From assembly GCA_019801415.1 (NCBI GenBank), contig JAHVJD010000011.1, positions 1 through 64,000 on the forward strand: a stretch of 64,000 nucleotides of DNA, given 5' to 3'. This document shows, in pieces, positions 1-16,213 of the stretch (positions within the stretch are counted from its first letter, which is position 1; every line of letters starts with the position of its first letter). This stretch comes from Nocardioides marinus. Its GTDB lineage: Bacteria > Pseudomonadota > Alphaproteobacteria > Rhodobacterales > Rhodobacteraceae. Both the position numbers and the translations under genes were made by a program. The notes below the pieces were generated by a model. It had not been told where the DNA came from. It did not search any database and saw only the letters and a list, made by a program, of their open reading frames with translations.

Positions 1-63
1 AAGCACATCAACCTGCCGCAGCTTCTGAACTATTTCCTCAGGCTTGTGTCGCTTGTTCGCCAT
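1..63 (-). mobile_element. IS3-family transposase OrfA, N-terminal end of an insertion sequence
   Basis: Read leftward from 63, the 21 visible codons begin MANKRHKPEEIVQKLRQ, the usual opening of OrfA in one group of IS3-family transposases (the DNA-binding helix-turn-helix protein made with OrfB by frameshifting). The rest of the element lies left of the window. The IS terminus should be at about 90-110, where the reading frame turns into polymerase; I could not fix the inverted repeat or the target duplication. Confidence 0.75.
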
Positions 64-106
64 TCTCAGTCCTCCGTTTCCTAAACATAACGGTGGGCCA
101 ATTCAG

Positions 107-1486
107 ATGGGGCAATCCAGGACGGAGGAATACGCCCCTGCGAAACGGCCGTTCATCGGTTTTGCCAGCAACTGCATCAACGAGCGGCTGAAGCATCCCA
201 AGAAATCCTTGGATAATCTGTTCTGGAAGGAGCTTGTCAATTCGACCTACGGCAAGACCGCCCAGGGCCTGCGGGAGCGCCGCATATACGATTTGCGGGA
301 TGCCGAGACGAAACCGTTGGAGCCAAGCAAGATCACCAACCCGGTCTTTGCTGCATTCATCACAGCCTTTTGCAGGGGCGTCTTGGGGGAAATCATGAAT
401 GCCCTGCCGCCGGAGGTGCAGATCTTCAGTGTCACAACCGACGGCTTTCTGACAACGGCCACAGACAAGCAAATGCGGGCGGCTGCATTCGGGTCTCTTG
501 GGCGCAGGTATCTGGATGCACGCCGTATGCTCGCCGGGGAATGGGGCATCTACGAGATCAAGCACATCATCCGTCAGCCCGTAGGGTGGCGGACACGGGG
601 CCAAGCAACATTGCAGCCTTCGGTTCCCTCCGATTGGGACGGCACTGGAATGGCGCCAAAAGATGACGAGCGCGTTGTGCTGGCCAAGGGTGGCATTAAG
701 CTCGACGGCCTCTTGTCCAAGGCTGAACAGAACGCCAAGATCACCAGTCTGTTTTTAGAGCGCAAACCCACGGACAAGCTGCTGGTCACTATGGGGGCAG
801 GCATACGGGAGATGTATGAACAGGGCATGGATTTCGTTGACAAGACGATGGACCGGCGGCTGTCCATGGAGTTCGACTGGAAACGGCGGCCTGCCCAGGC
901 GGGTGACGTGTCAGCGTCCTACGGCAACGGCAAAACCTGCAAGCATCTGGCGTTCTCGACCGGTCCCTGGGACACCGTGGAGCAGTTCAACACCGTCCGC
1001 GCGATCTGGTCCCAGTACAACAAGGAAGCTCCGCATTGCTTGAAGACCTTACAGGACTACCAAGCCTTCGCTGCCTATTTCGAAGGCAAGCTAGCCGCGC
1101 AGGGGGAGGCTGGAAGATACTTGGCTAAGGCGGGCGGCCCGCTGAAGCGGCTCCGCCGGGATTTGGCGATTGCCCACAAACTGCGGAAGGCTGGCACACA
1201 TGAACTGAAACCGAAGGCCTTCGGGCGGGAGCATCTGGCCAAAGGTTCAAAGCTGAAGGTGAAGGAGCTTGCCGAGTTCCTTGCGGTCGAGCTGGATGTG
1301 CCGTGCACAAAGACCGATCTGGATAATGCCCGCAAGAAGACGGTGTTCACACCGCATCAGGTGCCACGTACTACCGAAACGGTTTCGGTGCTTGAGGCCG
1401 CGCGGCGAGAGCTGTTTCCGCTGCTGGAGATTGAGCAGTTCCTAACGCCGGAGGCCGCGTTCAGCCTGGATGTGGAAAAACGCTGA
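107..1486 (+). pseudogene. Family B DNA polymerase, C-terminal part, cut by the IS element (piPolB-like)
   Basis: The frame holds two diagnostic family B polymerase motifs. Motif B, KELVNSTYG (KxxxNSxYG), is encoded at about 227-253, and a motif C variant, TTDGF, at about 434-448, where most family B enzymes have DTD. About 345 residues follow motif C, room for a thumb and C-terminal extension. Motif A (DxxSLYP) and the exonuclease domain are missing because the IS replaces the 5' part; an upstream ATG at 44 belongs to IS-end sequence and is in frame only by chance. A TTDGF-like motif C and location on an integrated element fit the primer-independent polymerases of pipolins, which replicate or repair their element. 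A protein-primed polymerase of a phage or linear plasmid is the alternative. Without its N-terminal half it cannot be a working polymerase. Confidence 0.7.
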
Positions 1487-1658
1487 CATGACGCTGCATC
1501 GCAGTGCCCCAAGGAGGAACTGGGTTGCATCGTTCAGCGAATGACCCAGGGGCCCATCCGGTCAAATAATAGTAAAAGCACTATATGGGTGAGAGCGCCT
1601 GACAATCACCATTTTTGCCAGTTTCGCTGGGGCATCTTAGACCTTCGCAACTTCCCAT

Positions 1659-2840
1659 CTATACGCTAGGCTGCAATCCATCTGCGAGAGCGACACACCC
1701 AACCATTCGAAGACCACCCAAAAAATTCCGCCGAAAATTAGTTTTGCCCATGAGGTCCTGAACTTGCTGCCGCAAGTCGGCTCTTACCTTGTACAGCTTC
1801 ATTTGCACTTCCAAACGTTCCTCATAAAATTCTGCAAATGTGCGGGTGCTGTTTAAGCGGTAAATCGTTTCAGCGTCGGCCAGCTCTTCTTCGGACAACT
1901 CACTCACAATGTCATTGATGACCTGTTGCTCAATCTGGCGTTCGTGCTGCAGTTCACGGAAGCTCACTCTCGCCAAAAAGTCAGTGCCCAACGCGTCTGT
2001 ATTACGAGGTGGATGAAGGGTATCCCACTTGCCCAACAGAAATTCTGCTTTTTCATTTGTTAAGTGGATGGGTGTGCTGTTGATTCCGACGATCCCTGCC
2101 AACTCACGTGTCTCTTGAATTTTGTCTAGTGCGGCAGTGAAGTTCCGGTTGCTCAGTACATACCGCGCTCGAATGCGGTTCTTTGCCTCTTCGAAATCCG
2201 GAGAGCCCCATTCACTACGCTGTGGCAGGTTGCGAGCTATCTCAAGCAAATCTTGCCGTGAGCAATGTGCAGTCCTAGTTCCTGTTTTCCATTCATCACA
2301 CAGAGAATAGGCACGGTTCTTAAGTTCTCCAAGTATCGTCGACAGGCTGTCGAGGCTTTTATAGATGACCAGAATGTTGGCTAAAGCCTTTTTGTCCATG
2401 CTTTGCTTGCCGTCGCGGTTGGTGTGATAGCGCAATTCCTGACCATCGCTATCGACCTGGGTTAGGCTATCAATGTACGGCCTAAGACGTGTAAGCTGTG
2501 TTCGGAAGCTTTCGTCAGGTATTTGCTTTTCTTCGAGAAAGGACGCATGAGAAGCAATATCATGGTTAGCTTTGTGACCTTCGGTCAAGACGCCGCGATT
2601 CACAAATTCCCTGATGACAAGCTTCAGTGTTAGCTCAATTGCATGGCGTGCGTTGTACAGTATTGGTAGGACGAGTGTGTCGCGCTTTTCATACAGGCTC
2701 TTGTCGATTACGGCTGCGGCGAGCTCCATCGCCGCTTCGATGTATCCGTCTGCATAGTTCTCTTCGTCACCTTGCTTGCCGATGCAAGCGTTCCAATCGC
2801 TATCTTCCGTCAGTGCGAAGAATGGGTCAGTGGTGGTCAT
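1659..2840 (-). CDS. Hypothetical protein with a possible HEPN-like N-terminal helical domain
   Basis: This 393-residue soluble protein has no signal peptide or membrane segment. The ATG at 2840 was chosen because GAGG lies just upstream; an in-frame ATG at 2903 would add 21 residues. Near residue 63 it has a helix reading NARHAIELTLK, then a histidine-rich stretch (HDIASH, about 93-98) and LRYH at about 136-139. This layout recalls HEPN-type proteins, in which an Rx4-6H pair forms an RNase site, but I see no clean motif. The C-terminal half is charged and helical. It lies on the island between a polymerase remnant and a serine recombinase and may belong to the element's defence cargo. Function is unassigned. 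Confidence 0.6.
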   Translation of the reverse strand: MTTTDPFFALTEDSDWNACIGKQGDEENYADGYIEAAMELAAAVIDKSLYEKRDTLVLPILYNARHAIELTLKLVIREFVNRGVLTEGHKANHDIASHASFLEEKQIPDESFRTQLTRLRPYIDSLTQVDSDGQELRYHTNRDGKQSMDKKALANILVIYKSLDSLSTILGELKNRAYSLCDEWKTGTRTAHCSRQDLLEIARNLPQRSEWGSPDFEEAKNRIRARYVLSNRNFTAALDKIQETRELAGIVGINSTPIHLTNEKAEFLLGKWDTLHPPRNTDALGTDFLARVSFRELQHERQIEQQVINDIVSELSEEELADAETIYRLNSTRTFAEFYEERLEVQMKLYKVRADLRQQVQDLMGKTNFRRNFLGGLRMVGCVALADGLQPSV

Positions 2841-2927
2841 ACTGGGTGGCCTCGAAGGGGAACTCTTCTTCAACCTTAAGAAGCAATTTCGGTTTGCTGG
2901 CAAGTGTACGACGTGACTGTTGTACTC

Positions 2928-3581
2928 TTAGGTGTTCTCAGATTTCCCGGACGCGCAGCAGATGACGTAGTTCCTGACGGTTTGTGGATACCACTTCCCG
3001 CCCTTTGGGGTCTTCACGCCACGGTCGTTCAGCAGCCTTGCAGCCCCGGAAAATGATCCTGCGTCGGCAATCGCTCTCTCGAACTCGGGGCGTATCGTCT
3101 CGAAGAATTCCCGCTTCTCTAGCCGCCGTCGGGCTGCCAAGGCTTGGGCGTTCCGGCCAAGCACGGTTCCCCGCTTCTTGGCGGCTCTGAGCGCGGCTCT
3201 GGTGCGTTCTGAAATCTGGCGGCGCTCCTCCTCAGCGAAACAGGCCAGCAGGTGCAGAAAGAAGGTCGAAACGTTCGGGTGTTCGCAGACGGTCAGCTCA
3301 ATGCCCTGGTCGATGATCCCTGATATGAACGACACCTTCCGGGAGAACCTGTCCAGCTTCGGGATCAGCAGCTTGGACCGGGTTTTCTTGACGAGGTTGA
3401 TCGCGTTCCACAGTTCCGCCCGGTCGTCCCGTTTGCCGGATTGGATTTCGGTGAACTCGGCAATCACGTTGTCGGCGGGCTGAAGAAACTGCTCGACCAT
3501 CGCCCGCTGCGCTTCCAGCCCCAGGCCAGACCGCCCCTGCCGTTCCGTCGAAACCCGATAGTAGACAACATATTCCGCCAT
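2928..3581 (-). CDS. Serine recombinase (resolvase/invertase family)
   Basis: The 217-residue protein opens with the resolvase catalytic signature YYRVSTERQG, with the nucleophile at Ser11. It also has the arginine-bearing KLDRFSR segment at about 75-81 and the EEERRQISERTRAAL helix that leads from catalytic to DNA-binding domain. The C-terminal about 50 residues (GSFSGAARLLNDRG) form a small helix-turn-helix. Enzymes of this size resolve or invert DNA between short sites through a Ser-DNA intermediate; they are smaller than the large serine integrases. It probably resolves dimers or rearranges the island, while tRNA integration itself is more typical of a tyrosine integrase. The 5' end is about 270 bases from the divergent SIR2 gene. 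Confidence 0.9.
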   Translation of the reverse strand: MAEYVVYYRVSTERQGRSGLGLEAQRAMVEQFLQPADNVIAEFTEIQSGKRDDRAELWNAINLVKKTRSKLLIPKLDRFSRKVSFISGIIDQGIELTVCEHPNVSTFFLHLLACFAEEERRQISERTRAALRAAKKRGTVLGRNAQALAARRRLEKREFFETIRPEFERAIADAGSFSGAARLLNDRGVKTPKGGKWYPQTVRNYVICCASGKSENT

Positions 3582-3847
3582 TTCGCTCCCTCCGTAGCCG
3601 ACAAACGTTGGTTTGTCGTAGACGGCGTCCGGCAGGTTGGCGAAGATCTCAACGGGACGATGAGGTTTTTAATTTCGGGACTGAGCGCGACAAAGCTCCA
3701 GACCTCACAGCAAGCGTGACCGATCAGAACCTTTCGAGGGGGCTTCTTACGTTAACTTTTTTCATGCTCGTTTTAAGTATTTATCCGCCTTTTCAACCGC
3801 TTACGGATGTGCTCTACTGCGGGAAAATCACAACGAAAGGTCCCCCT

Positions 3848-5149
3848 ATGAGCGAGTATTTCGAAATCGCTTACGCTGCTGCTTCGAAGCGATTGTGTCT
3901 TTTTACGGGAACCGGGTTTTCGATGGCGCTAACCGAAAACGAGATGCCTGGCTGGCAAGAGCTGCTTGAAGAAGTCTGCGACAAACACTTCAAAGACAGT
4001 GAAATTAAAGACACGCTTTTTCCTGATGAAGAGAACAACCCCCTTCAATTGGAAGAGGCCGCTGAGGTGATTGGCCTTGAGCTTGAAAGAAATGAAAAAA
4101 ACATACACGAAGAAATATCAAAGATTGTCGGTGACGTGAAGGTCGCCGGCAGCATTGAGAATGTGTCAGAGTTTTTTAAAAAGCGCTCTTTTCGTGTTGT
4201 CACCACTAACTACGATAAAATCTCCGAAGAGCTTTCTGGGTCGGACTGTCAATCATTAAGCCCCGGGCTTCCAGTTCCGAGATCTAACAGTCGGGTCAAA
4301 GTTTTCCACGTTCACGGCTCCATTGATTATCCATCTCGTATGGTGGTAACATCAAGCGACTATTTTGAATTTATGGGCGGTGACTCTTATTTCTCTCAGA
4401 AGCTAAGTACTATTCTCCATGAAAACACTGTGGTGATCCTTGGTTACTCCCTGGGTGATACAAACCTGAAAACGATATTGAACAACTATAGTGGCTTTAT
4501 GAAGAGCCACAATGTTAGCAGCAGTATTTTCTTTGTTTCCAGGAAGGCTGTTCCTCAGCCAATTGCCGACTATTATGCTGCTTGCTACGGCATACGGGTT
4601 ATTGGAAAAACTGAAGTTGATGAGTTCTTTCGAAAGGTGGAGAATAAGTACGCATCTGCTGAGAAAGTCATCGACAGGTCGATTAAGGGCATTAAGAAGG
4701 TTCTTCATGAGGGCGCCACCTTCAAGGACACATTTTTGCAGCAGGATTATTCATTTTACCAAGTCATATCCGCAATTGGCGCCATAGGAGAAAGCTTGGA
4801 GAGTGGACCGGTCGTCGAAATGTTTGGACATATTATCGACACGAAGAAAAAGCTATGCAAGGCGGATGGGGCTTGGGAGCAGTATGTTCAACTTGCTTCC
4901 TGGCTTACTCATTTGGGATCTCTCATCGAAATTAAAGGCAGGTCAATCGAGGACAACTACCTCAGCGCAGTCAAGTTTTCGATGGAAACAATGACCAGCA
5001 CTCGGCTTCTCGGGTATTCTTGGCATGCTTATTCTAAATGGGATAGGCGTTGGAGGAACATCACCGGCAAAAACCGTGCAATGATCAAAGGTCACATTGA
5101 AGCTATATCAAAAGATCCTGACGCTTTGAAAATCGTATCCAGGGGTTAA
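3848..5149 (+). CDS. SIR2-domain protein, candidate anti-phage NADase
   Basis: The 433-residue protein has an N-terminal SIR2-like Rossmann domain. FTGTGFS at 19-25 is the NAD-binding GAGxS-type loop, TTNYD at 119-123 carries the catalytic Asn, HVHGSID at 154-160 has the catalytic His, and GYSLGD at 199-204 closes the fold. No zinc-binding cysteine quartet of protein deacetylases is visible, which matches the SIR2 domains of bacterial defence systems that destroy NAD on infection. The C-terminal about 170 residues are helical and unrecognised and may be the sensor. The ATG at 3848 has AAAGG upstream. The gene is AT-rich for this genome and rich in lysine, a sign of transfer. Defence function is inferred from family and location. 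Confidence 0.8.
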   Translation: MSEYFEIAYAAASKRLCLFTGTGFSMALTENEMPGWQELLEEVCDKHFKDSEIKDTLFPDEENNPLQLEEAAEVIGLELERNEKNIHEEISKIVGDVKVAGSIENVSEFFKKRSFRVVTTNYDKISEELSGSDCQSLSPGLPVPRSNSRVKVFHVHGSIDYPSRMVVTSSDYFEFMGGDSYFSQKLSTILHENTVVILGYSLGDTNLKTILNNYSGFMKSHNVSSSIFFVSRKAVPQPIADYYAACYGIRVIGKTEVDEFFRKVENKYASAEKVIDRSIKGIKKVLHEGATFKDTFLQQDYSFYQVISAIGAIGESLESGPVVEMFGHIIDTKKKLCKADGAWEQYVQLASWLTHLGSLIEIKGRSIEDNYLSAVKFSMETMTSTRLLGYSWHAYSKWDRRWRNITGKNRAMIKGHIEAISKDPDALKIVSRG

Positions 5150-5235
5150 GCAGGCCTTCGAAATAAATCACTAGCTACAATTGCTTTGGTGATCCGCTCT
5201 GCCACTAGAATGGTTTTTGGGGTTGGTGATCATCT

Positions 5236-5347
5236 TTAGGAGGCAGGGTTCGGAGCGATGGTCGCCACCGGAAATAGGTCAAAGTCACTCCGGAAGACCT
5301 TATACAGCAAGATCTGGTTCTGGTCGAGTATGTCCGTCCCGGCCTAG
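5236..5347 (-). pseudogene. Decayed 3' fragment of a second copy of the lipoprotein gene at 6357-6728
   Basis: Translated leftward, the fragment reads DILDQNQILLYKVFRSDFD and ends ATIAPNPAS before a stop at 5236-5238. The C-terminus of the intact gene at 6357-6728 reads DILGQDQCLMYKVFWSDFD and ends GTIAPNPIS. Similarity runs back to about 5347, where a TAG replaces the parental Glu codon. No 5' part is present. This is the only coding trace in the 300-base gap 5150-5449. Confidence 0.8.
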
Positions 5348-5449
5348 TCTTTTCAGACTGTATTGCCTCCAGCCGTCTTTGAGCTAGTAGATTTCAGCTA
5401 TCAAAAAAATTGGGATTCGTCAGAGTCTCATAAGGTGAAGTGAAAACTA

Positions 5450-6226
5450 ATGAATTTCAATGAGACAGGGGTAAGTTTAGCTCCGGATGAACTTGCCTTT
5501 TACTTTGCTTGTGTCGATGGCGTTGAAGCCAGCGCGCTAGGCTCATTTCTGAGTCGGGCGTCGACAGTTGCAAAGAGAAAGGGCGCGGATCTTCATATTA
5601 CTGCTACTCACAATGGTAGCCTTGTAGTTGTTGCGCGAGCTGCAAAGAGGGGCGGCAGTACCGTTGGAAAGGAGTTCGCCTCGAGTCCAATGCAAACTGC
5701 AGCTGCAACTACAGTCGTCGTTGGAATTGTTGTTGCTGGCATCAACAACGCTGTAAGCTCAGACAACAAGGAGATTTCCCCCCTTGCGAAAGCTTGTATT
5801 GCGCTAATTGAAGAGCACGAGATTGAGAAAATTCAGCTGGTTACGGCTGAAACCACTACTCTCTTAATGGACAAAGAAAAGGCTTCCCTTATTGCTCCCA
5901 ATTCAAGGAGTTCCATGTTCGAAATCGCTGACGAGCTTCCTAGGACGGTCCTTTTCCCTACCGCAACGGATGTTGATCTTAAGCTCCGAACCCTATTTCA
6001 GAAGGGTCTCAGCGGCGACCTCACTGGTATAGCGATATATGCAGGCCCTGATCTGCACTTTAGGCCTGATGGCCACAGATATTTGGTACCGGTGGAGTAC
6101 AGCTCTAACTATGACGGTGTTAAGTTGTCTCCCAGCAAACACTATCGGGTGCGTGGCGCTATCAAGTTTCACGATGGGGTACCTGAGCGAATTGAAGTTG
6201 AGGCTGCTGAACCTGAAGGACGTTAG
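5450..6226 (+). CDS. Hypothetical protein with one hydrophobic segment, downstream of the SIR2 gene
   Basis: I do not recognise this 258-residue protein. A hydrophobic stretch at about 83-103 (AAATTVVVGIVVAGINNAV) could be one membrane helix between an N-terminal domain of about 80 residues and a C-terminal domain of about 150. The end is acidic (EVEAAEPEGR). GGTGAAG lies ahead of the ATG. It is co-directional with the SIR2 gene but 300 bases away, with a pseudogene fragment between, so shared transcription is uncertain. Low GC marks it as accessory. It could be a membrane partner of the SIR2 protein or an unrelated cargo gene. Confidence 0.6.
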   Translation: MNFNETGVSLAPDELAFYFACVDGVEASALGSFLSRASTVAKRKGADLHITATHNGSLVVVARAAKRGGSTVGKEFASSPMQTAAATTVVVGIVVAGINNAVSSDNKEISPLAKACIALIEEHEIEKIQLVTAETTTLLMDKEKASLIAPNSRSSMFEIADELPRTVLFPTATDVDLKLRTLFQKGLSGDLTGIAIYAGPDLHFRPDGHRYLVPVEYSSNYDGVKLSPSKHYRVRGAIKFHDGVPERIEVEAAEPEGR

Positions 6227-6331
6227 AGCCGGTTGGTGAACTGGACCAATGGCTCAATTGTAGGTGCATTGATGAGATTTCCTCATCCTGTCTGCGAACC
6301 GGACACCCTCAAGATTTGATCTTGAGAGTTT

Positions 6332-6351
6332 GGCTGCCAGTTTTGGCAGCC
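6332..6351. terminator. Hairpin terminator between convergent genes
   Basis: GGCTGCCA and TGGCAGCC pair perfectly around a four-base loop. The hairpin is placed to end the rightward gene at 5450-6226 and the leftward lipoprotein gene. The T-tract is weak in both directions. Confidence 0.6.
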
Positions 6352-6356
6352 GTTCC

Positions 6357-6728
6357 TTAAGAAATAGGGTTCGGAGCGATGGTACCCTCCGGAAACAGGT
6401 CAAAGTCGCTCCAGAAGACCTTATACATGAGGCACTGGTCCTGGCCGAGTATGTCCTTGCCAGCTTCGATGCACTCAGCTCGTACGCGCTCACCGGTCTC
6501 AAAGCGGAACCCAATATCGCCTAGATTGTCGTCAAACTGGTACTGCGCTTTGCCGAAGTAGTTGACGTCATCGATCACCAGAAGGTCGGGTAGCATTTCG
6601 CCGCCCGGGTAAAACCATACCATCAACGCCTCTCCATCAGCGTTTCTGATAGGGACCGATGCCGGGATACATGCCTGTGTCGTCAGGAGCGTTGCTGTTG
6701 CCGCGGCGAGTTTGAAAAACCTTGTCAT
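6357..6728 (-). CDS. Small lipoprotein of unknown function
   Basis: The 123-residue precursor starts MTRFFKLAAATATLLTTQAC: a charged n-region, a hydrophobic core and a lipobox ending at Cys20, so it should be lipidated and anchored facing the periplasm. The mature part is acidic, with two further cysteines in the second half (RAECIEAG and DQCLMY) that could form a disulfide. It lies 42 bases downstream of the GYF_2-domain membrane protein in the same direction, so the two probably share a transcript. A degraded copy of its 3' end lies at 5236-5347. I see no known domain. Confidence 0.7.
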   Translation of the reverse strand: MTRFFKLAAATATLLTTQACIPASVPIRNADGEALMVWFYPGGEMLPDLLVIDDVNYFGKAQYQFDDNLGDIGFRFETGERVRAECIEAGKDILGQDQCLMYKVFWSDFDLFPEGTIAPNPIS

Positions 6729-6770
6729 TGCTAGATGCTTTCCTGGTTTGAAATCTGGGAGGCCGGGTGC

Positions 6771-7604
6771 CTAGAAGCCATCGAAACGCACGTGGAAATA
6801 GTACTGACCGTCCTGCTCGGAGATCGTGAGAGCGATTGGTGTGTCGATGCCGCTGGTGTTGGTCACTACGGCCCGGCACTTTCGCTGTCTGGAAGCTTCC
6901 GAATATGAAACCTGCTCGACGTCAGTGATGCTGACCGCCTTCGCCTTGCCGAAATTGATTGGGATATCAGGGTAGAGGTCCTCAACCATGTTCAAGGACG
7001 TTTTGCTGTCGCATTTCGGCAGGCCCGCCCCGGCATAGACACCTCCTGGCCATGCCGCTGTGATGAAGCCACCAAGCACCAAGGCAACAATCCAGGCGAC
7101 CAACGGCCCGCTGCCTAGACCTGTCCGCTTCGAACGCAAGTAGATGTATGCTGGGACGAGCAACAGAATCCAAAGCAGCAAGCCGTTCACGGCATCCCTG
7201 CGGCCACTCCGTTCAACAGCGTTCTGGTCGAGCAGCGCACAGATCGTGTTGGCAAAGAAGAACAGCAGGAACGACAGTCCAGGCAGGCCAGCCATGTTGA
7301 GGGATTCTGTGCCGTGCCTCAGCAATATGACCTCGGCAAATGACATCACCAATGGCACCGAGATCAGCATGTACAGCCAATGGTTCTGTATCTCGGTTGT
7401 CGGCACCAGAGGCGGTTCACTCGCCTCTCGCATTCCCGGAACCTCGGCAGCCCTCTTCCACTCGTCGGCAAAACCCTTGGTCCAGACAAGCGTTTTCTCT
7501 GTCAGCTCGCCGGTCTCGTATCGAGCCTTCAGATCAGGGAAAGTGACCGGCCCCAGACGCTCGCCGCCGATGATGTAAAACCATTCTGTATTCGCTTCAG
7601 TCAC
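6771..7604 (-). CDS. GYF_2-domain multi-pass membrane protein
   Basis: I place the start at the GTG at 7604 because GGAGG lies six bases upstream, giving 277 residues. Residues 5-60 form a GYF_2 domain (EWFYIIGGERLGPVTFPDL, then TLVWTKGF and DEWKRAAEV), a peptide-binding module found next to membrane segments in many bacterial proteins. About four hydrophobic segments follow (roughly 75-95, 105-130, 140-155, 165-185), then a C-terminal domain of about 85 residues with two cysteines (PKCDSKTS and RKCRAVV). Its job is unknown; the downstream lipoprotein may be its partner. Confidence 0.7.
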   Translation of the reverse strand: MTEANTEWFYIIGGERLGPVTFPDLKARYETGELTEKTLVWTKGFADEWKRAAEVPGMREASEPPLVPTTEIQNHWLYMLISVPLVMSFAEVILLRHGTESLNMAGLPGLSFLLFFFANTICALLDQNAVERSGRRDAVNGLLLWILLLVPAYIYLRSKRTGLGSGPLVAWIVALVLGGFITAAWPGGVYAGAGLPKCDSKTSLNMVEDLYPDIPINFGKAKAVSITDVEQVSYSEASRQRKCRAVVTNTSGIDTPIALTISEQDGQYYFHVRFDGF

Positions 7605-8475
7605 ACAGGACCTCCGTATTCGCTCGATTGCCAAAAATCAGCTTGCCAAATTGCAAATGCCTCCTTGGACAGCACTGCTCCTTGGCCCCAGAAGGCGATC
7701 CCTCGTGAGCGGCTGGAGGCCAACAGGTCAAAATGTGCTGTGGTCGGAAAAATTGGGACGGCTGCGCAGCACAGATCACTGTCACGCCGATCCGCATTGC
7801 AGCTCCGCGCGTCGTTCACCTGGTTCGGACTCGGTGTGCTTGGCTTCATGCGGCCCCGATCAGCGAGCGCCCTCGCGGTTGACTGGTGATCGGGGTGTTG
7901 GAAATCCGCTCTGACACGGACCCTGTGCCTTTAGCCGGAGCCTGTTGTATAACACAGGCACCCCGACCATAGGTCAAAGGTGTTCAGCCGAGTTTACGGC
8001 CTAGTCAGAGAAGGGGTTTCCACGCCCCAACATGGCCGCGTCTGCCATGTCGAGAGCAGTCGTAGCAGCTAACTTACTGGAGCAAAAGCCTTCTGTTTGG
8101 CCTTGAAGGAATGCTGGCGGCTATTGGTCAGCCCGGCGAATTGCCGACATTGGCTTCACATGCAACAATCGGCAGCTGAAATCCTCCACATCATTGCAAA
8201 CCGGATTGTGTGCTGCATGCGCTCGGGGTCAGGCGAAGCCCTGAGCAGACCTGTCACGGAGCTGTTCTTGCAGAGGGGGGGCGTATTCGACAGGCTGGCG
8301 GGCTTCGGACATACGCTGCACTTAGAATCAACGTTCGCCAACCACTTCCAACTGAAAAAGCGGGAGGTTGATGCACCGTTGGGGTCTAACACGGCGGCCC
8401 TGAGGCTGAACCGAGTTCGATCTGCCGGGAAGCCAGCCCTTTAACCCAAGAGGGGCAAAAAATTAACCTCGAAGG
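7605..8475. other. Long intergenic stretch without a supportable gene
   Basis: Open frames exist on both strands (for example 7601-7849 leftward and 8097-8444 rightward), but none has a convincing ribosome site or a recognisable product, and they overlap one another. Composition is close to that of the neighbouring genes, so the stretch may be the remains of decayed genes. Confidence 0.5.
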
Positions 8476-8507
8476 TTGACAGCCGGAGGAAGCTACCACA
8501 TATTGTG
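8476..8507 (+). promoter_or_regulatory. Promoter and possible autoregulatory operator of the XRE gene
   Basis: TTGACA at 8476-8481 is a perfect -35 element. With a 17-base spacer the -10 element is CATATT at 8499-8504. A short palindrome, CACA-TAT-TGTG at 8497-8507, overlaps the -10 and is a natural operator for the XRE repressor encoded 24 bases downstream. Repressor binding is inferred. Confidence 0.55.
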
Positions 8508-8530
8508 TTGTGACCCCAAGGAGACCCACC

Positions 8531-8887
8531 ATGACCACAGAAATCGGGAAGGAGCTGCGGAAACTGCGAATTGATGAGGATGAGCGACTGTTGGATATGG
8601 CCGCAAGGCTTGAGAAGTCCTCCGCGTTCATCTCCGCCGTGGAGCGGGGCACCAAGACCCCGCCCGAAGGCTTCGTTGAGCTTGTGATCAAGGCCTACAG
8701 GCTGGCAGAGGATGCCGCAGCATCCCTCCGCCGGGCCGCCGATAGATCACGCAAAAACTTCACTTTGGAGGCTGACAGCCTCCTTGCGAGGGACACCGCT
8801 GGACTGATGGCACGCCGGATAAATTCGCTGTCTGAGGAGGAGCTCAACAACATCTTCCAAATCCTCAGCAAGAAGGACGCGAAATGA
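8531..8887 (+). CDS. XRE-family helix-turn-helix regulator
   Basis: The 118-residue protein has a Cro/CI-type helix-turn-helix over about residues 5-60 (IGKELRKLRIDEDERLLDMAARL, then SSAFISAVERGTKTPP), followed by a helical tail. The ATG at 8531 follows AAGGAG. Its last codons overlap the start of the ImmA-type protease gene by four bases (ATGA), so the pair is co-translated. In integrative elements such a repressor/protease pair keeps the element silent until the protease cleaves the repressor after DNA damage; that role here is inferred. Confidence 0.85.
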   Translation: MTTEIGKELRKLRIDEDERLLDMAARLEKSSAFISAVERGTKTPPEGFVELVIKAYRLAEDAAASLRRAADRSRKNFTLEADSLLARDTAGLMARRINSLSEEELNNIFQILSKKDAK

Positions 8888-9423
8888 CTGAAGCAAGTGA
8901 CTTTATCGTGCCCCCCCGACGCTGGTCGGAAATCGGCGGCATTGCCGACAACCTCCGTCACCAGCTCGGACAGGCAGAGACGCCAAGGGTGCCGGTGATC
9001 GAAATCATCGAGCGTGTGCTGGATCAGCGGCTCGGGCTCCTCAACTTCGAGGTCGGCAGCCATGAGGAGATGGGCCGCGCAGAGGGCTACACATGCCCCA
9101 AGGGAGAATTCATCATGCTCCGCGAGGATGTGTACGAGGGTGTATGGGCGGGCGAAGGCCGAGCCCGGTTTACTACCGCTCACGAGCTGGGCCATTGGGC
9201 TATGCACACCAACATCCCGCTCGCCAGGGCGCGGAGGGGGGATGGCACTCCTTCCTACCGCCTGGCAGAGCCGCAGGCAAACCAGTTCGCTGCAGAATTC
9301 CTGATGCCTGAGTACTTCATCAACGCCTTTGACGATGAGGATGACTTGATGCTGCGCTTCGGCGTCTCCTGGGAGGCGGCGCGCAACCGGCTGCGCTATC
9401 TCCATAAGAACAGGAGACTTTAA
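8884..9423 (+). CDS. ImmA/IrrE-type zinc metallopeptidase
   Basis: The 179-residue protein carries the gluzincin motif HELGHW at 100-105, with a downstream helix EPQANQFAAEFLMP at about 129-142 that supplies the third zinc ligand. This is the hallmark of COG2856 proteases, which cleave partner XRE repressors. Its gene overlaps the XRE gene by four bases. The product may trigger excision or expression of the island, or act as the toxin-like half of a regulatory pair. Confidence 0.9.
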   Translation: MTEASDFIVPPRRWSEIGGIADNLRHQLGQAETPRVPVIEIIERVLDQRLGLLNFEVGSHEEMGRAEGYTCPKGEFIMLREDVYEGVWAGEGRARFTTAHELGHWAMHTNIPLARARRGDGTPSYRLAEPQANQFAAEFLMPEYFINAFDDEDDLMLRFGVSWEAARNRLRYLHKNRRL

Positions 9424-9430
9424 CGAAAGA

Positions 9431-9454
9431 AGGCTCAGGTTGGCGCCCGAGCCT
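9431..9454 (+). terminator. Possible terminator after the XRE/ImmA pair
   Basis: AGGCTC and GAGCCT form a six-pair stem seven bases after the ImmA stop codon. The stem is short and followed only by a mixed pyrimidine run, so the call is weak. Confidence 0.35.
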
Positions 9455-9592
9455 CCTCACAGATTTCTTCATCGTGCGTCAGGGGCTTGACGATGCAGAG
9501 CCTCCCAGAAGCGCAAATCAGTCTCCTAAGCAGGACTGGATTTAGCGCATTTTGGGCCAAAAGGCAACATACGCCCCGAAGTGGAGAGTGTG

Positions 9593-9730
9593 ATGACCAA
9601 GCGTTGCACCCCCCCTCCGCCGGGATACCGGTATGTCTTCCGCCCTTGGCGGACATGCCCGAAGACCGGCACCCGGCTCTACGCGAAAGCGTTCGGGCTG
9701 CGGGCGTGGCCTATTCTGATCCCGGAATAG
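9593..9730 (+). CDS. Small conserved-looking basic protein (45 residues)
   Basis: The frame starts at ATG 9593 with GGAGAG just upstream and ends at TAG 9728-9730. The product opens MTKRCTPPPPGYRYVFRPW and ends RAWPILIPE, with an aromatic- and arginine-rich centre. From memory, short proteins with a YRYVFRPW-like segment occur in other alphaproteobacterial islands and prophages, which would support it being real. Function is unknown. Confidence 0.55.
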   Translation: MTKRCTPPPPGYRYVFRPWRTCPKTGTRLYAKAFGLRAWPILIPE

Positions 9731-9803
9731 CCACCCACCCAGATCGAAGGGAGGCGCGGTGAGCGCGCCCCCCACCCTAAATGCATAAGTGAAAGATCGA
9801 AAA

Positions 9804-9920
9804 ATGAAATCGAAAACGTTTAAAATTGGCCGCAGCGCAAAGACCGGCCGCTTCACCACAGTCAAAAAGGCAACGCAGCGCAAGTCCACCCACGTGGTGG
9901 AGACCATCAAGAAAAAATAG
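9804..9920 (+). CDS. Very small basic protein (38 residues)
   Basis: ATG 9804 to TAG 9918-9920 encodes a 38-residue protein starting MKSKTFKIGRSAKTGRF and ending HVVETIKKK. About 12 of the 38 residues are Lys or Arg. The GRSAxTGRF / STxxVExIK pattern is one I recall from tiny hypothetical proteins scattered in proteobacterial genomes. No clear ribosome site precedes it. It could bind nucleic acid, but that is a guess from charge. Confidence 0.5.
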   Translation: MKSKTFKIGRSAKTGRFTTVKKATQRKSTHVVETIKKK

Positions 9921-9992
9921 TGCGCACCACTTGAGATCGTCGTGTCCTGTTCGAGGGGCACGGCGGCTCACGCCAACCTACACGAGAGCAAT

Positions 9993-10397
9993 ATGGTAGA
10001 ATACATTGACCTGCCGCCCGAGGCGGCTGAGCTGATTCAGCACCAGCATGATACCGACCGTGCCGCCGCTGGGCCGAAAGCCCCAGTGTCCGGCTTCACC
10101 TACCGGGGCGTCCAGATCGAGAGCCGCTGGGCGGTGCTGGCTGAACTGGATACGATGCGCCGGATCATCGATACAATGCCTGAACTCTTGGCTCGCCGCC
10201 TTGAGGACATCTGGTGCGACTCAAATGCCGGGGCTTGCTACACGGTGACTGTGCGATCCGGCCTCTGGGTGCCCGAACTGCGCTGGGCTATCTCTGACGC
10301 CGTGATGGAGGCAGGGGGTGGCCACAACGGCATCATGGTCGAGGCTGACGGCGGCAACGGCTTTGACGTCGACCCAAACTGGGGCGAGCAATTTTGA
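9993..10397 (+). CDS. Hypothetical acidic protein
   Basis: From ATG 9993 the product is 134 residues, acidic, without signal peptide or membrane segment. The central part is helical (RWAVLAELDTMRRIIDTM and ELLARRLEDIW) and the C-terminal third is Gly/Asp-rich (AGGGHNGIMVEADGGNG). I recognise no domain. An in-frame ATG at 9942 is possible but has no better ribosome site. It is the last gene before the island's right end. Confidence 0.5.
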   Translation: MVEYIDLPPEAAELIQHQHDTDRAAAGPKAPVSGFTYRGVQIESRWAVLAELDTMRRIIDTMPELLARRLEDIWCDSNAGACYTVTVRSGLWVPELRWAISDAVMEAGGGHNGIMVEADGGNGFDVDPNWGEQF

Positions 10398-10517
10398 AAC
10401 GGCAGTACAGGCTTGAATGTCTGTTGGGGGTGGCTACGAGCCTTTGGCACACCGACTATGGATGTCTGGCTTAGGCCACATCCCAGCTCAACTAGAGCTT
10501 ATGTTGGCTTCGGCTTT

Positions 10518-10664
10518 GCAAAGGTCATTCCCTGCACTTGCTCCAAAGAGTTCTGACACTCTCCGGCTGGCAATTACTCCAAAATATTCATTCATTTTCA
10601 ATACATTAGGCAATCTCCTGAGGTGGTCTGAAGAAAAGTTACACACTGACCTTTGCAATACATT
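10518..10664. repeat. Short inverted and direct repeats next to the attachment site
   Basis: GCAAAGGTC at 10518-10526 and GACCTTTGC at 10648-10656 are perfect inverted copies. CAATACATT occurs at 10599-10607 and 10656-10664. The AT-rich, repeat-bearing stretch between the last island gene and the tRNA-Phe fragment resembles the arm-site region of an integrase attachment site. No gene is seen in 10398-10692. Confidence 0.4.
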
Positions 10665-10692
10665 GTAACCACTTGAAATCACAATTGGTAAT

Positions 10693-10741
10693 GTGATTGA
10701 AAATCCTCGTGTCGGTGGTTCGATTCCGCCCCCGGGCACCA
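10693..10741 (+). other. Attachment site scar: 3' part of tRNA-Phe (GAA)
   Basis: The sequence covers the anticodon loop (GATTGAAAATC), variable loop, T-arm (GGTTCGATTCC) and acceptor 3' strand (CCCCCGGGCACCA) of tRNA-Phe. The 5' half is absent: upstream sequence does not form the D-arm or the matching anticodon stem. Such a truncated 3' copy is what remains at the distal end when an element inserts into a tRNA gene and restores its 3' end on the other side. Identity starts at the anticodon region, so the crossover probably lay there. Confidence 0.85.
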
Positions 10742-11750: not shown

Positions 11751-11827
11751 TGGTAGCGGAGGAGGGACTTGAACCCCCGACACGCGGATTATGATTCCGC
11801 TGCTCTAACCAACTGAGCTACTCCGCC
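11751..11827 (-). tRNA. tRNA-Met (CAT), elongator type
   Basis: The reverse strand folds as a full 77-base tRNA including an encoded CCA: acceptor GGCGGAG/CTCCGCT with one terminal mismatch, D-arm AGCTCAGTTGGTTAGAGC, anticodon stem GCGGA/TCCGC around ATCATAA, and T-arm GGGGGTTCAAGTCCCTC. The CAT anticodon with a standard first acceptor pair argues for elongator tRNA-Met rather than initiator. A lysidine-modified tRNA-Ile (CAT) cannot be excluded by eye. Confidence 0.93.
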
Positions 11828-11985: not shown

Positions 11986-12786
11986 TCAGCCCTCGGCGAC
12001 GTCCAGGGCGGCCAGCGGCGGGCGCGGCAGCTGGTCCAGCAGCTCGAACACCAGGGCGCGGCAATGCTCGCCCACCCAGTCGGACGGATGAAAGTATGGG
12101 GGCAGGTCAGGGTGCCGCAGGACCACACGCCGCCAGCGGTGCACGATCAAGGTGCGCAGTGTGCCCAGCTGTTCTGGATTGAGAGTGCCCGGGGGCGGCG
12201 GCACAAGGGATAGGTCGCCGTGCAGCGTGGCGCAGGCCTGCCGCAGGTGTTCAGGGTAGAGACGCGTCTTGAGCCACTGCGGGACGGCAATGGACTTGAC
12301 CTCCACCGCCAGAACCCCCTCCAGATTGCGGGGCATCGGCCCGTGGCCCAACGCCGTGCTGCGGTTTACGGGCACGTAGTTCGGCAGCACCAGCACCTCG
12401 TCGAGGCCGTCCGGGTTCGCGCCGTCCTCGCAGATCAGCAGGTGCCAGTCCTGCGGCGCCGAGACGGTGCGCTCATAGATCCGCGGGGTGACCGCGGCGG
12501 ATTGGTTGCGACCGTATTCGGTAAGGTAGTGGATCGAGGCGCGGCCGGAGCGGGCGCTCTCGATCCAGCCGTCCTTGCGCAGGCGGTGCAGAGCGACGCG
12601 GATGGCCTCGGGCTTGATTCCCATCGGCGTGATGATCCGGGTCAGGGCGCTGCCGCTGATCTGCGCGCCCTTGTCCTGGGCCAGATCCCCGAACAGCGAA
12701 ACGATCACCGACCAGACCCGCTGATTCTGCGGGTCGTTCAGCTGCTGGACCGCGCTTTCGAACCAGATGTCATTGCTGTCGCTCAT
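11986..12786 (-). CDS. paaX: PaaX-family transcriptional repressor of phenylacetate degradation
   Basis: The 266-residue protein has a winged-helix N-terminus (SALTRIITPMGIKPEAIRVALHRLRKDGWI), a linker with the family's SGRASIHYLTEYGR wing, and the PaaX effector domain after residue 100. PaaX proteins repress paa genes until phenylacetyl-CoA, made by PaaK, binds them. It lies 55 bases downstream of paaZ in the same direction and is probably co-transcribed with it. ATGs at 12798 and 12786 are both possible and neither has a good ribosome site; I chose the shorter form. Confidence 0.88.
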   Translation of the reverse strand: MSDSNDIWFESAVQQLNDPQNQRVWSVIVSLFGDLAQDKGAQISGSALTRIITPMGIKPEAIRVALHRLRKDGWIESARSGRASIHYLTEYGRNQSAAVTPRIYERTVSAPQDWHLLICEDGANPDGLDEVLVLPNYVPVNRSTALGHGPMPRNLEGVLAVEVKSIAVPQWLKTRLYPEHLRQACATLHGDLSLVPPPPGTLNPEQLGTLRTLIVHRWRRVVLRHPDLPPYFHPSDWVGEHCRALVFELLDQLPRPPLAALDVAEG

Positions 12787-12802
12787 AAGTTTCAACATAG
12801 AT

Positions 12803-12831
12803 CGCCCGGACGGGTTAGACCAGTCCGGGCG
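12803..12831 (-). terminator. Hairpin between paaZ and paaX
   Basis: CGCCCGGAC and GTCCGGGCG form a nine-pair stem with an 11-base loop just after paaZ. No U-tract follows, so it may lower read-through or protect the paaZ 3' end rather than stop transcription. Confidence 0.4.
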
Positions 12832-12841
12832 GTTTGCGGCC

Positions 12842-14872
12842 TTAGTAGGCGTTCATGGTCAGCAGCTCATACTCCGCGGCAATGTCGCCGTCCTGATTGG
12901 TCAGCGTCACATGCCAGCGGACTTCGCCGTATTCGTCGTTGCGCGGGGTCTTTTTCTTGACGGTCAGGCGCACCTGGATGCTGTCACCGGCCGAGACCGG
13001 TTTCATGAAGCGCAGGTTGTCCAGTCCGGTGTTGGCCAGCACAGGGCCTTCGTCCGGCTGCACGAACATACCCGCGGCGAAGGACAGCAGCAGGTAGCCA
13101 TGCGCGACCCGGCCCGGGAAGAACGGGTTCCGCTTGGCGGCTTCTTCGTCCATGTGGGCATAGAAGGTGTCGCCGGTGAAATGGGCGAAGGTCTCGATGT
13201 CCTCCAGCGTGACGGTGCGCGGCGCGGTGTGCAGGGTTTCACCGATCGCCAGCTCGCCGAACCTGCGGGTGAAGGGGTGGGCCGGGCCTTTGATCTCGGT
13301 GCCGCCGGGGACCCATTTCTCACCGATGGCCGACAGGATGTCGGGTGAGCCCTGGATGGCGGTGCGCTGCATGTAGTGTTTGACGCCGCGCACGCCGCCC
13401 ATCTCCTCGCCGCCGCCGGCGCGGCCCGGGCCGCCATGCACCATGTGCGGCAGCGGAGAGCCGTGGCCGGTTGATTCCTTCATCGAGTCGCGGTTGTTGA
13501 AGTAGAGGCGGCCATGGTAGGCGCCCGCCCCAATGGCGACCTCGCGCGCGACGACCGGATCATGGGTGATGACCGAGGCCACCAGCGAGCCCTGGCCGCG
13601 GTTGGCCAGATCGATGGCGTGGTCGAGGTCGCGGTAGCCCATGATGGTGGAGACGGGGCCGAAGGCCTCTGTGTCATGCACGCGCTGCGCCTTGTCCGGG
13701 TCGGCGCAGTGGAGCAGCATCGGCGGAACAAAGGCGCCTTTGTCGGCGTCGGCACCGTCGACGGAGAAGTTGTCCGGGTCGCCAAAGACGCGCTCAGCCT
13801 CCTGGCCGATGATTGCGGCCTTCTCCAGAACGTCGCGTTTCTGACCGTTCGAGACCAGCGCGCCCATGCGGGTGGTCTCCAGCCGCGGATCGCCGATTTG
13901 GGTTTTCGCAAGCCGCGCCGACAGCGCTTCGATCACCGCATCGACCTGTGCTTGCGGTGCGATGATGCGGCGGATCGCGGTGCATTTCTGGCCCGCCTTG
14001 GTGGTCATCTCGCGTTGCACTTCCTTCACAAACAGGTCGAACTCCGGCGTGCCGGGCTGCGCGTCGGGGCCAAGGATCGAGGCGTTGAGGCTGTCCTGTT
14101 CGGCCACGAACCGCACCGAGTTCTTCAGGATCACAGGGTTTGCGCGCAGCTTCAGCGCGGTGTCGGCGGAGCCGGTGAAGCTGACCACGTCCTGCATGGT
14201 CAGATGGTCCAGCATGTCGCCCAAGCCGCCAGAGACCAGCTGTAGCGCGCCTTCGGGGAGGATGCCGCTGTCGAGCATCAGCTTCACTGCCAGCTCGGTC
14301 ACGTAGCAGCTGTTGGTGGCCGGTTTCACGATGGCGGGAACACCGGCGAGCAGGGTGGGGGCCAGCTTCTCCAGCATGCCCCAGACCGGGAAGTTGAAGG
14401 CGTTGATATGCACCGCGACGCCGCGCAGCGGGGTGCAGATGTGCTGGCCCAGGAAAGTGCCGTTGCGGGAGAGCTGCTCGACATCGCCATCAAGATAGAC
14501 ATGCGCATCCGGCATCTCGCGGCGCCCCTTGGAGGCAAAGACGAACATGGTGCCGATGCCGCCGTCGATGTCGATCATGTGGTCGGACTGGGTGGCGCCG
14601 GTGTTGAACGACAGATCGTAAAGCGCCTGCTTGTGCTGGTTCAGGTGGCCCGCCAGCGCCTTCAGCATCCGGGCGCGGTCGTGGAAGGTCAGCTTGCGCA
14701 AGGCGGGGCCGCCCACGGTGCGGGCGTAGTCGAGCATTCCTTGCACGTCGAGCGCGTCATTGCCTGCGCTGGCGATCACCTCGCCGGTGATGGCGCTGGC
14801 GATGTTGCGGGCACCTGCGCCCGGTGCGACCCATTGACCCGCCGCAAAGCTGGAAATCTCAAGAAGGCTCAT
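12842..14872 (-). CDS. paaZ: PaaZ, bifunctional oxepin-CoA hydrolase / semialdehyde dehydrogenase
   Basis: The 676-residue protein is a fusion typical of PaaZ. Residues 1 to about 520 are an aldehyde dehydrogenase with the catalytic cysteine in [10 protein letters not shown] and a conserved FNFPVWG cofactor loop. Residues from about 540 to the end are a MaoC-type hotdog hydratase ([20 protein letters not shown] in similar form, then [12 protein letters not shown]). The hydratase domain opens the oxepin-CoA ring and the dehydrogenase oxidises the aldehyde to 3-oxo-5,6-dehydrosuberyl-CoA, keeping a toxic aldehyde channelled. It diverges from paaG across a 127-base promoter region. Confidence 0.95.
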
Positions 14873-14938
14873 GATGCTGTCCTTTTCGTCAGGCCGACAC
14901 AGGGCCGGCTGTCTGGAAACCGATGCTGAGATATATTG

Positions 14939-14952
14939 ACCGTCCGGTCGGT
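14939..14952. promoter_or_regulatory. TetR-type operator in the paaZ/paaG divergent promoter
   Basis: ACCGTCCGGTCGGT is palindromic at six of seven positions and sits midway between paaZ and paaG. It resembles operators of TetR regulators that control acyl-CoA and aromatic-CoA catabolism. The TetR gene at the end of the paaGIK operon is the obvious candidate; PaaX may bind nearby. Confidence 0.6.
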
Positions 14953-14999
14953 TTATGCAAGGAATTTGTCAAAGGCACCGCTGACAAGGTGAGGGAGCG

Positions 15000-15785
15000 A
15001 TGAGCGATACGATTCTGGTGGAGGATCACGGCACCTGGGTGGAGATCACCCTGAACCGTCCGGACCGGCTGAACAGTTTCAATGAGGAGATGCACAACGC
15101 GTTGCGCGCAGCACTTGAGGCAGCGCGGGACGGCGGAGCCCGTGCGGTGCTGCTGACCGGTGCCGGGCGCGGCTTTTGCGCGGGCCAGGATCTGGGCGAC
15201 CGCGACCCGCGCAAGCTGGACGGGCCGCCGGACCTTGGCAAGACCGTGCGCAGCTTCTACGCGCCGCTGGTGCGGCTGATCCGCTCGCTGGATTTCCCGG
15301 TGATCTGCGCCGTCAACGGCGTGGCGGCGGGGGCCGGGGCCAATCTGGCACTGGCCTGCGACATGGTGCTGGCGGCGGAAAGCGCCAAGTTCATCCAGTC
15401 GTTCTCCAAGGTCGGCCTGATCCCCGACACTGGCGGCAGCTGGCATCTGCCCCGGCTGCTGGGCGAGGCCCGTGCCAAGGGGTTGGCGCTGACGGCCGAG
15501 CCGTTGCCTGCGAAGAAGGCCGAGGACTGGGGGCTGATCTGGAAGGCGCTGCCGGACGGCGACCTGATGACAGAGGCCCGTGCCATGGCCGAGAAATTCG
15601 CAAACGGTCCGACGCTGGGCCTAGGGCTGACCAAGCAGTGCATTCAGGCGGCTGCGGTCAATACCCTGTCCGATCAGCTGGAACTGGAAGCGGATGCGAT
15701 GAAGACCTGTGGCGAAAGCGCCGATTATGCCGAGGGCGTTGCCAGCTTCCTGGAAAAGCGCGCCCCTGAGTTCAAGGGCAGATGA
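15000..15785 (+). CDS. paaG: PaaG, ring-1,2-epoxyphenylacetyl-CoA isomerase
   Basis: The 261-residue crotonase-fold protein has the CoA-binding and oxyanion segments GRGFCAGQDLGDRD at about 57-70 and VNGVAAGAGANLALACD at about 102-118. FIQSFSKVGLIPDTGGSW at about 128-145 carries the Asp typical of PaaG, where simple hydratases have Glu. PaaG isomerises the epoxide to oxepin-CoA, the substrate opened by PaaZ. GTGAGGGAGCG precedes the ATG. Its stop overlaps the paaI start, giving translational coupling. Confidence 0.93.
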   Translation: MSDTILVEDHGTWVEITLNRPDRLNSFNEEMHNALRAALEAARDGGARAVLLTGAGRGFCAGQDLGDRDPRKLDGPPDLGKTVRSFYAPLVRLIRSLDFPVICAVNGVAAGAGANLALACDMVLAAESAKFIQSFSKVGLIPDTGGSWHLPRLLGEARAKGLALTAEPLPAKKAEDWGLIWKALPDGDLMTEARAMAEKFANGPTLGLGLTKQCIQAAAVNTLSDQLELEADAMKTCGESADYAEGVASFLEKRAPEFKGR

Positions 15786-16213
15786 CCATGACCCCGAAAG
15801 AACGCGCCGAGAAATCCGCGGCTGCCATGTGGGCGGACGACCATGCCTCCAAATGGGCGGGCATGGAGATCACCCATGTGGATGAGGGCGAGGCCACGCT
15901 GGAGCTGACGGTGGCGCAACACCATTGCAACGGCCACGGCATCTGCCACGGCGGCGTGACCTTCATGCTGGCTGACAGCGCCTTTGCCTTTGCCTGCAAC
16001 AGCCGCAACCAGGCAACGGTGGCGCAGCACAACGTGATCAGCTTCACCGCGCCGGGTCGGCTGGGCGACCGGCTGATCGCCACTGCTCGCGAGGTTTCGC
16101 TGACCGGGCGCAGCGGTATTTACGACGTGACAGTGACCAATCAGGACGGCCAGCAGATCGCGGAGTTCCGGGGCTTTTCCCGCGCGATCAAAGGCCAGTT
16201 GTTCGACGAATAA
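15782..16213 (+). CDS. paaI: PaaI, hydroxyphenylacetyl-CoA thioesterase
   Basis: This 143-residue protein is a hotdog thioesterase of the PaaI type, with the signature HGICHGGVTFMLADSAFAFA at about 56-75 containing the catalytic Asp of the HGG loop. It releases CoA from dead-end ring-hydroxylated CoA esters so that phenylacetate breakdown does not trap CoA. Its ATG at 15782 overlaps the paaG stop (ATGA); a second ATG at 15788 is possible. Confidence 0.93.
   Translation: MTMTPKERAEKSAAAMWADDHASKWAGMEITHVDEGEATLELTVAQHHCNGHGICHGGVTFMLADSAFAFACNSRNQATVAQHNVISFTAPGRLGDRLIATAREVSLTGRSGIYDVTVTNQDGQQIAEFRGFSRAIKGQLFDE

Follow-up and report, generated by a model that had tools for sequence, protein, structure and literature searches.

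A tRNA-Phe pipolin of a Leisingera strain with a predicted broken primer-independent DNA polymerase gene at an IS3-family insertion sequence

Pipolins, including alphaproteobacterial ones and copies with truncated primer-independent DNA polymerases (piPolBs), are already in print. In the available text of PMC9710591 they are described from diverse bacterial phyla, the Alphaproteobacteria being named in the legend of Figure 3, with tRNA-linked repeats and with plasmid forms that carry resolvases and have often lost the integrase. The available sections of PMC7385651 report insertion sequences and truncated piPolBs in Escherichia coli pipolins, the truncated ones being counted, and those of PMC7544198 describe piPolBs that lack the first aspartate of motif C and are still active. 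Among the matches listed by our literature search, which fell short of the main pipolin literature and supports no claim of priority, no paper named roseobacter pipolins in its title or the start of its abstract. An earlier note on this DNA had called such elements little known in marine Alphaproteobacteria; the search agrees with that remark as far as roseobacters are concerned, and the legend in PMC9710591 narrows it.

The pipolin of E. coli ETEC H10407 resembles the elements studied here in the motifs GFDTE (exonuclease), KExxNSxYG and VTTDGF of its piPolB, the first of them in comparison with intact copies, as the copy of our strain has no exonuclease. Tyrosine recombinases, att repeats at a tRNA gene and accessory restriction genes, described in the sections of PMC7385651 available, are also alike. 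It differs in its site (tRNA-Leu versus tRNA-Phe here) and in protein sequence, with about 30% identity. A serine recombinase is conserved in our elements, whereas the only one annotated in the H10407 stretch sits in the neighbouring prophage. Staphylococcus epidermidis pSE-12228-03 (NC_005006) likewise combines a piPolB with a small serine recombinase, but it is a circular plasmid with a relaxase and no annotated integrase, and its piPolB is 25–28% identical. The closest system is that of Leisingera sp. ANG-M7 (genome G673, locus L023), of the same genus, with the same tRNA-Phe site, a serine recombinase, a 95–96% identical piPolB and an integrase 99% identical over the part compared. Unlike our element, that of ANG-M7 has an intact piPolB of 926 aa, about 25.7 kb between its att repeats and partly other cargo. 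An integrative pipolin in which the integrase is accompanied by a conserved serine recombinase may be the one less usual point of the present set.

The stretch analysed, hereafter the window, comprises the first 64 kb of contig C11 in a draft genome of 3.89 Mb and 20 contigs, and C11 starts at window position 1. The best explanation of its left part, to which we give a probability of roughly 0.85, is a pipolin of about 15 kb at tRNA-Phe(GAA), with an IS3-family copy where about 2 kb, including the N-terminal half of piPolB, is missing. The features of the element, on C11 and on contig C12 (locus L036), are as follows.

Window 1–10741, no strand: pipolin share of the window; the remainder lies on C12:120-3648, with the tyrosine integrase (L036:2305-3474) and tRNA-Phe.
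Window 1–119, minus strand: end of an IS3-family insertion sequence, orfA side; C11 begins within the IS, and the partner end is C12:1-119 (L036).
Window 120–1486, plus strand: C-terminal half of piPolB, aligned to residues 452–904 of the ANG-M7 protein (926 aa); it retains motifs B and C but has neither the exonuclease nor motif A.
Window 2928–3581, minus strand: small serine recombinase of resolvase/invertase type, 82–96% identical in related tRNA-Phe pipolins.
Window 3608–5149, plus strand: SIR2-domain cargo protein with a likely start near 3848 (phrog_7567, E=2.2e-164).
Window 8510–9423, plus strand: helix-turn-helix (HTH) protein (8510–8887) and M78/ImmA-type metallopeptidase (8884–9423), cargo or regulator.
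Window 10695–10741, plus strand: att repeat of 47 bp with the same sequence as the 3' end of tRNA-Phe(GAA); its counterpart lies within the tRNA gene.
C12:3574-3648 (L036), minus strand: tRNA-Phe(GAA) gene, whose last 47 bp are the att copy.
L036:2305-3474 (contig C12): tyrosine integrase (phrog_1 integrase, E=2.9e-23), frame open.

The 47-bp tRNA-Phe repeats, together with an empty site in another genome of the genus, indicate that the element extends from C12 across the IS as far as window position 10741, over about 15 kb. In that genome (G680) tRNA-Phe passes straight into the right flank of the window over 795 aligned bases. In G664 it passes into the same flank over 168 bases and is followed by a stretch resembling the start of the integrase region, and in G663, which holds part of the right flank, no tRNA-Phe was found beside it within the stretch examined. 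The integrase is 78–99% identical among 10 aligned loci (L023 only in part), and that of our strain ends a few residues earlier than those of its relatives. A piPolB gene, here truncated, att-like direct repeats overlapping a tRNA gene and a tyrosine recombinase were thus all present, and by these testable features the element is classified as a pipolin with a broken piPolB, the mobile pipolin context of the earlier note being borne out.

With regard to cargo, the SIR2-domain protein gave partial matches to the PDC-S25, ThsA and Dsr1 defence models, and the HTH and M78 pair to the CapH (E=2e-4) and CapP (E=6.6e-18) models; from these partial profile matches, a defence role of the SIR2 and M78 peptidase genes is conceivable. 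The gene at window 1659–2903, which lies between those of the polymerase remnant and the serine recombinase, encodes a 414-aa protein; searches of Pfam, PHROG and PADLOC gave no match for it, and the other loci compared contained no relative at E 1e-8. Past the right att site, a tRNA-Met is located at 11751–11827, followed at 11986–16213 by paaX-, paaZ-, paaG- and paaI-like genes, which we take to be of the phenylacetate degradation type.

The break was located by comparison with two intact copies. From base 120 onward the window matches ANG-M7 from L023:10005 onward, and C12, which opens with the other IS end, matches it from its own base 120, from L023:8015 backwards. In the second intact Leisingera copy (genome G669, locus L094) the same flanks meet positions 11007 and 9029. 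The flanks are correctly oriented and the sequence missing between them is 1,989 bp with respect to ANG-M7 or 1,977 bp with respect to G669. In ANG-M7 the equivalent of the lost part takes in 632 bp ahead of the first start codon of the frame and some 452 codons, in which the exonuclease motifs and the aspartate of motif A lie. Exonuclease motifs and the motif A aspartate occur in one protein in the intact relatives and are lacking in the window copy. The joint from C12 through the IS to C11 is inferred from this synteny with the two intact relatives.

At the left edge, within window 1–119, a transposase reading frame starts on the minus strand. This IS end occurs at 7 genomic sites, that of the window included, with 98–100% identity and always no more than about 330 bases from the end of a contig, and a weaker match of 77% was found at one further place in the genome. 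Phaeobacter inhibens plasmid pDOK1-1-2 (L098) carries an element annotated as an IS3 family transposase, which is 93% identical to window 1–119 and, as the opposite IS end, 86% identical to C12:2-113. In pDOK1-1-2 both ends and the transposase gene stand together, whereas beside the pipolin only the ends are assembled; the assignment to the IS3 family combines both ends and a partial orfA read in our genome with the transposase annotation of L098, and the distance between the two ends in L098 is the sole basis for an IS length of about 1.2 kb. An OrfA start of an IS3-family element on the minus strand, proposed in the earlier note, is confirmed.

The census of this IS in the draft genome gave 7 orfA-ends, 6 full opposite ends and one weak match of 27 bp. 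No target duplication was detected, as no match of 2–6 bp exists between the C11 and C12 flanks of the IS, contrary to what had been expected. None of 42 pairings of IS ends across the genome share 3 bp, so the missing duplication says little, is not specific to the pipolin copy and is unable to separate a deletion from shuffled IS copies. The genome (G000) is small, 3.89 Mb compared with 4.5–5.5 Mb in the 20 other genomes of the genus searched. Its size, the IS3-type copies at contig ends and the lack of shared 3-bp duplications make IS-driven genome loss possible.

The event is an IS insertion accompanied by a deletion of about 2 kb, or else by a piece of about 2 kb that was left unassembled. 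The latter alternative, in which two IS copies flank the N-terminal half, the gene is split with nothing deleted and the piece between them was dropped from the assembly, is unlikely. It would fit the absent target duplication, and contigs of this draft often end at IS copies, but an assembly that kept five contigs of 515–2,737 bp should also have recovered a piece of about 2.2 kb. Moreover, the missing N-terminal half was not found in protein and DNA searches of the 3.89-Mb assembly, and the missing stretch is absent from the small contigs C15 to C20 and from the first 5,000 of the 5,968 bases of C14.

The preferred reading is an IS3-family copy where about 2 kb was lost, made up of the upstream region and roughly the initial 452 piPolB codons; the likely origin is a single IS insertion with an adjacent deletion, or two insertions that recombined. 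Against this reading stand the unsequenced joint, the IS at many contig ends, the lack of a target duplication, phage matches in PHROGs and the slightly shorter integrase. Several expectations of the earlier note have to be modified on this basis. The IS joint lies inside the gene, as its phrase of a polymerase beheaded by an IS implies, but insertion alone is insufficient, with about 2 kb lost or unassembled. Reading to the left of the window is prevented by the contig end, and the other IS end opens C12 instead. The exonuclease and motif A region expected beyond the IS is neither there on C12 nor elsewhere in the assembly. That very absence had been named as a refutation of the break; it was observed to the letter, and the IS joint within the gene stands nevertheless.

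Over 456 codons, dN/dS, obtained by a simple counting method, was 0.082 between the window and ANG-M7, 0.088 between the window and G669 and 0.080 between the intact copies of ANG-M7 and G669, more distant rows being saturated or nearly so. The fragment thus gives no sign of relaxed selection, and either the break happened recently or the remnant remains in use; a recent loss of the polymerase is probably the better interpretation. A remnant of 459 residues fused to the IS and retained because it has its own function, such as C-terminal DNA binding, with its start within the IS end, is very unlikely. The frame open over 456 codons, the low dN/dS and an in-frame ATG in the IS end are compatible with it, but a recent break would give the same pattern and the piPolB gene's own upstream region is gone.

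The remaining fragment would be unable to form a two-metal polymerase site, and the element is therefore expected to be without a replicase of its own; as the available part of PMC9710591 describes what piPolB does biologically as unclear, the loss of the replicase, and with it of self-replication, is something we infer. The tyrosine integrase, both att sites and the serine recombinase look whole, and excision and integration may therefore still be possible. The statement in the earlier note that the element is probably immobilised goes beyond this evidence.

The assignment of the fragment to the piPolBs, and not to the phage protein-primed PolBs, agrees on several lines. The open frame 120–1486 contains motif B (KELVNSTYG) and motif C (VTTDGF, residues 109–114 of the fragment). 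A C-terminal family B polymerase had been read from about position 107; motifs and frame hold, but the ATG at 107 sits within the IS end and the polymerase sequence begins at 120. The C-terminal tail of the fragment is about 19 residues shorter than that of ANG-M7 and, judged by eye, in another frame. Genome searches gave 9 confirmed loci from 70 pattern matches, and with the closest, the intact protein of ANG-M7, the fragment shares 95% identity over 453 residues, far beyond chance.

A piPolB profile built from E. coli, Staphylococcus and Fusobacterium, without kin of the window, scored the fragment at 177 bits and ANG-M7 at 385, while a phage protein-primed profile (phi29, Cp-1 and PRD1) gave 7 and 8 bits, both profiles being rough, with three rows each. 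In the reverse check, the phi29, Cp-1 and PRD1 enzymes reached 2–25 bits with the piPolB profile. Pairwise, the E. coli H10407 piPolB matched ANG-M7 with 320 bits (30% over 849 residues) and the window fragment with 162 bits, compared with 21 bits for ANG-M7 against phi29 and 35 bits against PRD1. The E. coli reference is an 866-residue protein of ETEC H10407 (NC_017633, 2121246-2123846), labelled hypothetical in the record; its frame has a tailed-phage prophage nearby and is surrounded by genes for tyrosine recombinases and type I restriction, and it was taken as the H10407 piPolB because this neighbourhood agrees with the available description in PMC7385651, where the H10407 pipolin adjoins a myovirus prophage.

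In a tree of 20 rows, the 17 on the piPolB side were separated from the three protein-primed phage rows with support of 100/100, and the window grouped with ANG-M7 at 100/99; a long-branch warning applies to PRD1, Fusobacterium, Staphylococcus, Cp-1, G132 and phi29, and the root serves for drawing only. Motif C was TDG in 17/17 piPolB-side rows (16 TTDG and one VTDG) and DTDS in all three protein-primed rows, so the window copy, like known piPolBs, lacks the first aspartate. No match at E 1e-3 to the fragment or to the ANG-M7 protein was found among 50,697 phage records. Plasmid records (tblastn) gave 45 matches out of 72,556, all to PolBs of Staphylococcus, Fusobacterium and Pseudosulfitobacter, the last accounting for 30 of them. 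Pfam and NCBIfam contained no family for the fragment itself, the intact ANG-M7 protein matched Pfam DNA_pol_B_2 with 38 bits, and PDB searches returned nothing useful.

A phage protein-primed PolB in a prophage remnant is scarcely credible and was rejected on the profiles, pairwise scores, tree, motif C and phage records, its one argument being that the best PHROGs matches, phrog_11768 for the fragment (38 bits) and phrog_1907 for ANG-M7 (52 bits), are both named DNA polymerase, but these are weak, come from answers that contained no piPolB model and compare with 409–673 bits for the phi29, Cp-1 and PRD1 enzymes with phrog_1907. Window 120–1486 is accordingly annotated as the C-terminal half of a piPolB, the gene being a broken and not a working one. 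The profile comparison proposed in the earlier note decided in favour of its piPolB reading.

Pipolins of the tRNA-Phe type were recognized at 11 loci: the window, L023 (G673), L094 (G669), L020 (G261), L024, L025 (G144) and L026–L030. A homologous integrase is present in all 11 and a serine recombinase in 10, not being found in L030. Both att copies were located in the genome of the window, in L027, L028, L029 and L094, and in L023 through G673. L025 has one copy of 45 bp, L020 a partial left copy, and L024, L026 and L030, within the available stretch, the tRNA copy only. Carriers of piPolB are few: 3 of the 21 genomes of the genus, this broken copy included, and, with this genome counted both times, 5/292 in a sample of the order and 4/398 in a sample of the phylum.

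Among 14 Rhodobacterales loci (the 11 of the tRNA-Phe type together with L011, L021 and L022), piPolB is not whole in four, namely the window, L027 (first 169 residues unmatched), L030 (unmatched after residue 731) and L011. The last of these, at L011:7638-13182 on plasmid P1 of Pseudosulfitobacter pseudonitzschiae (NZ_CP087043), is a distant piPolB beside an integrase, interrupted by IS66 genes. The integrase at L036:2305-3474 shares 99% identity with its counterpart in Roseobacter sp. MED193 (L029:6072-7259), while the piPolBs are about 74% identical, which points to a putative exchange of modules between pipolins of different genera.

Viral contigs of the IMG/VR type were also searched. With the fragment as query, none of 13 pattern matches was confirmed; with the piPolB alignment as query, one of 52 was (L064, IMGVR_UViG_3300048586_000622), a contig of 22 kb filed as viral, with a 43% identical piPolB. 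Of nine frames tested from 13 kb of it, five were unmatched; the matches were to an integrase, a transposase, an M78-type peptidase and a single family whose function is unknown, with no capsid or tail family among the nine. This contig may be a pipolin and not a virus.

It is a tentative idea, with the odds against it, that the roseobacter pipolins at tRNA-Phe are a separate lineage in which an integrative kit, the tyrosine integrase, and a plasmid kit, the serine resolvase, have come together around piPolB; this combination would suit an excised circle that replicates and then needs resolution. Copies without piPolB, such as the present one, could then persist as satellites, mobile by their integrase, defective in replication and dependent on intact relatives. 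With its integrase and att sites kept and its polymerase cut, and with intact elements of its genus occupying the same site, the element offers a clean comparison for the need of piPolB in excision, copy number and transfer, and the set of tRNA-Phe pipolins from roseobacters widens the described range.
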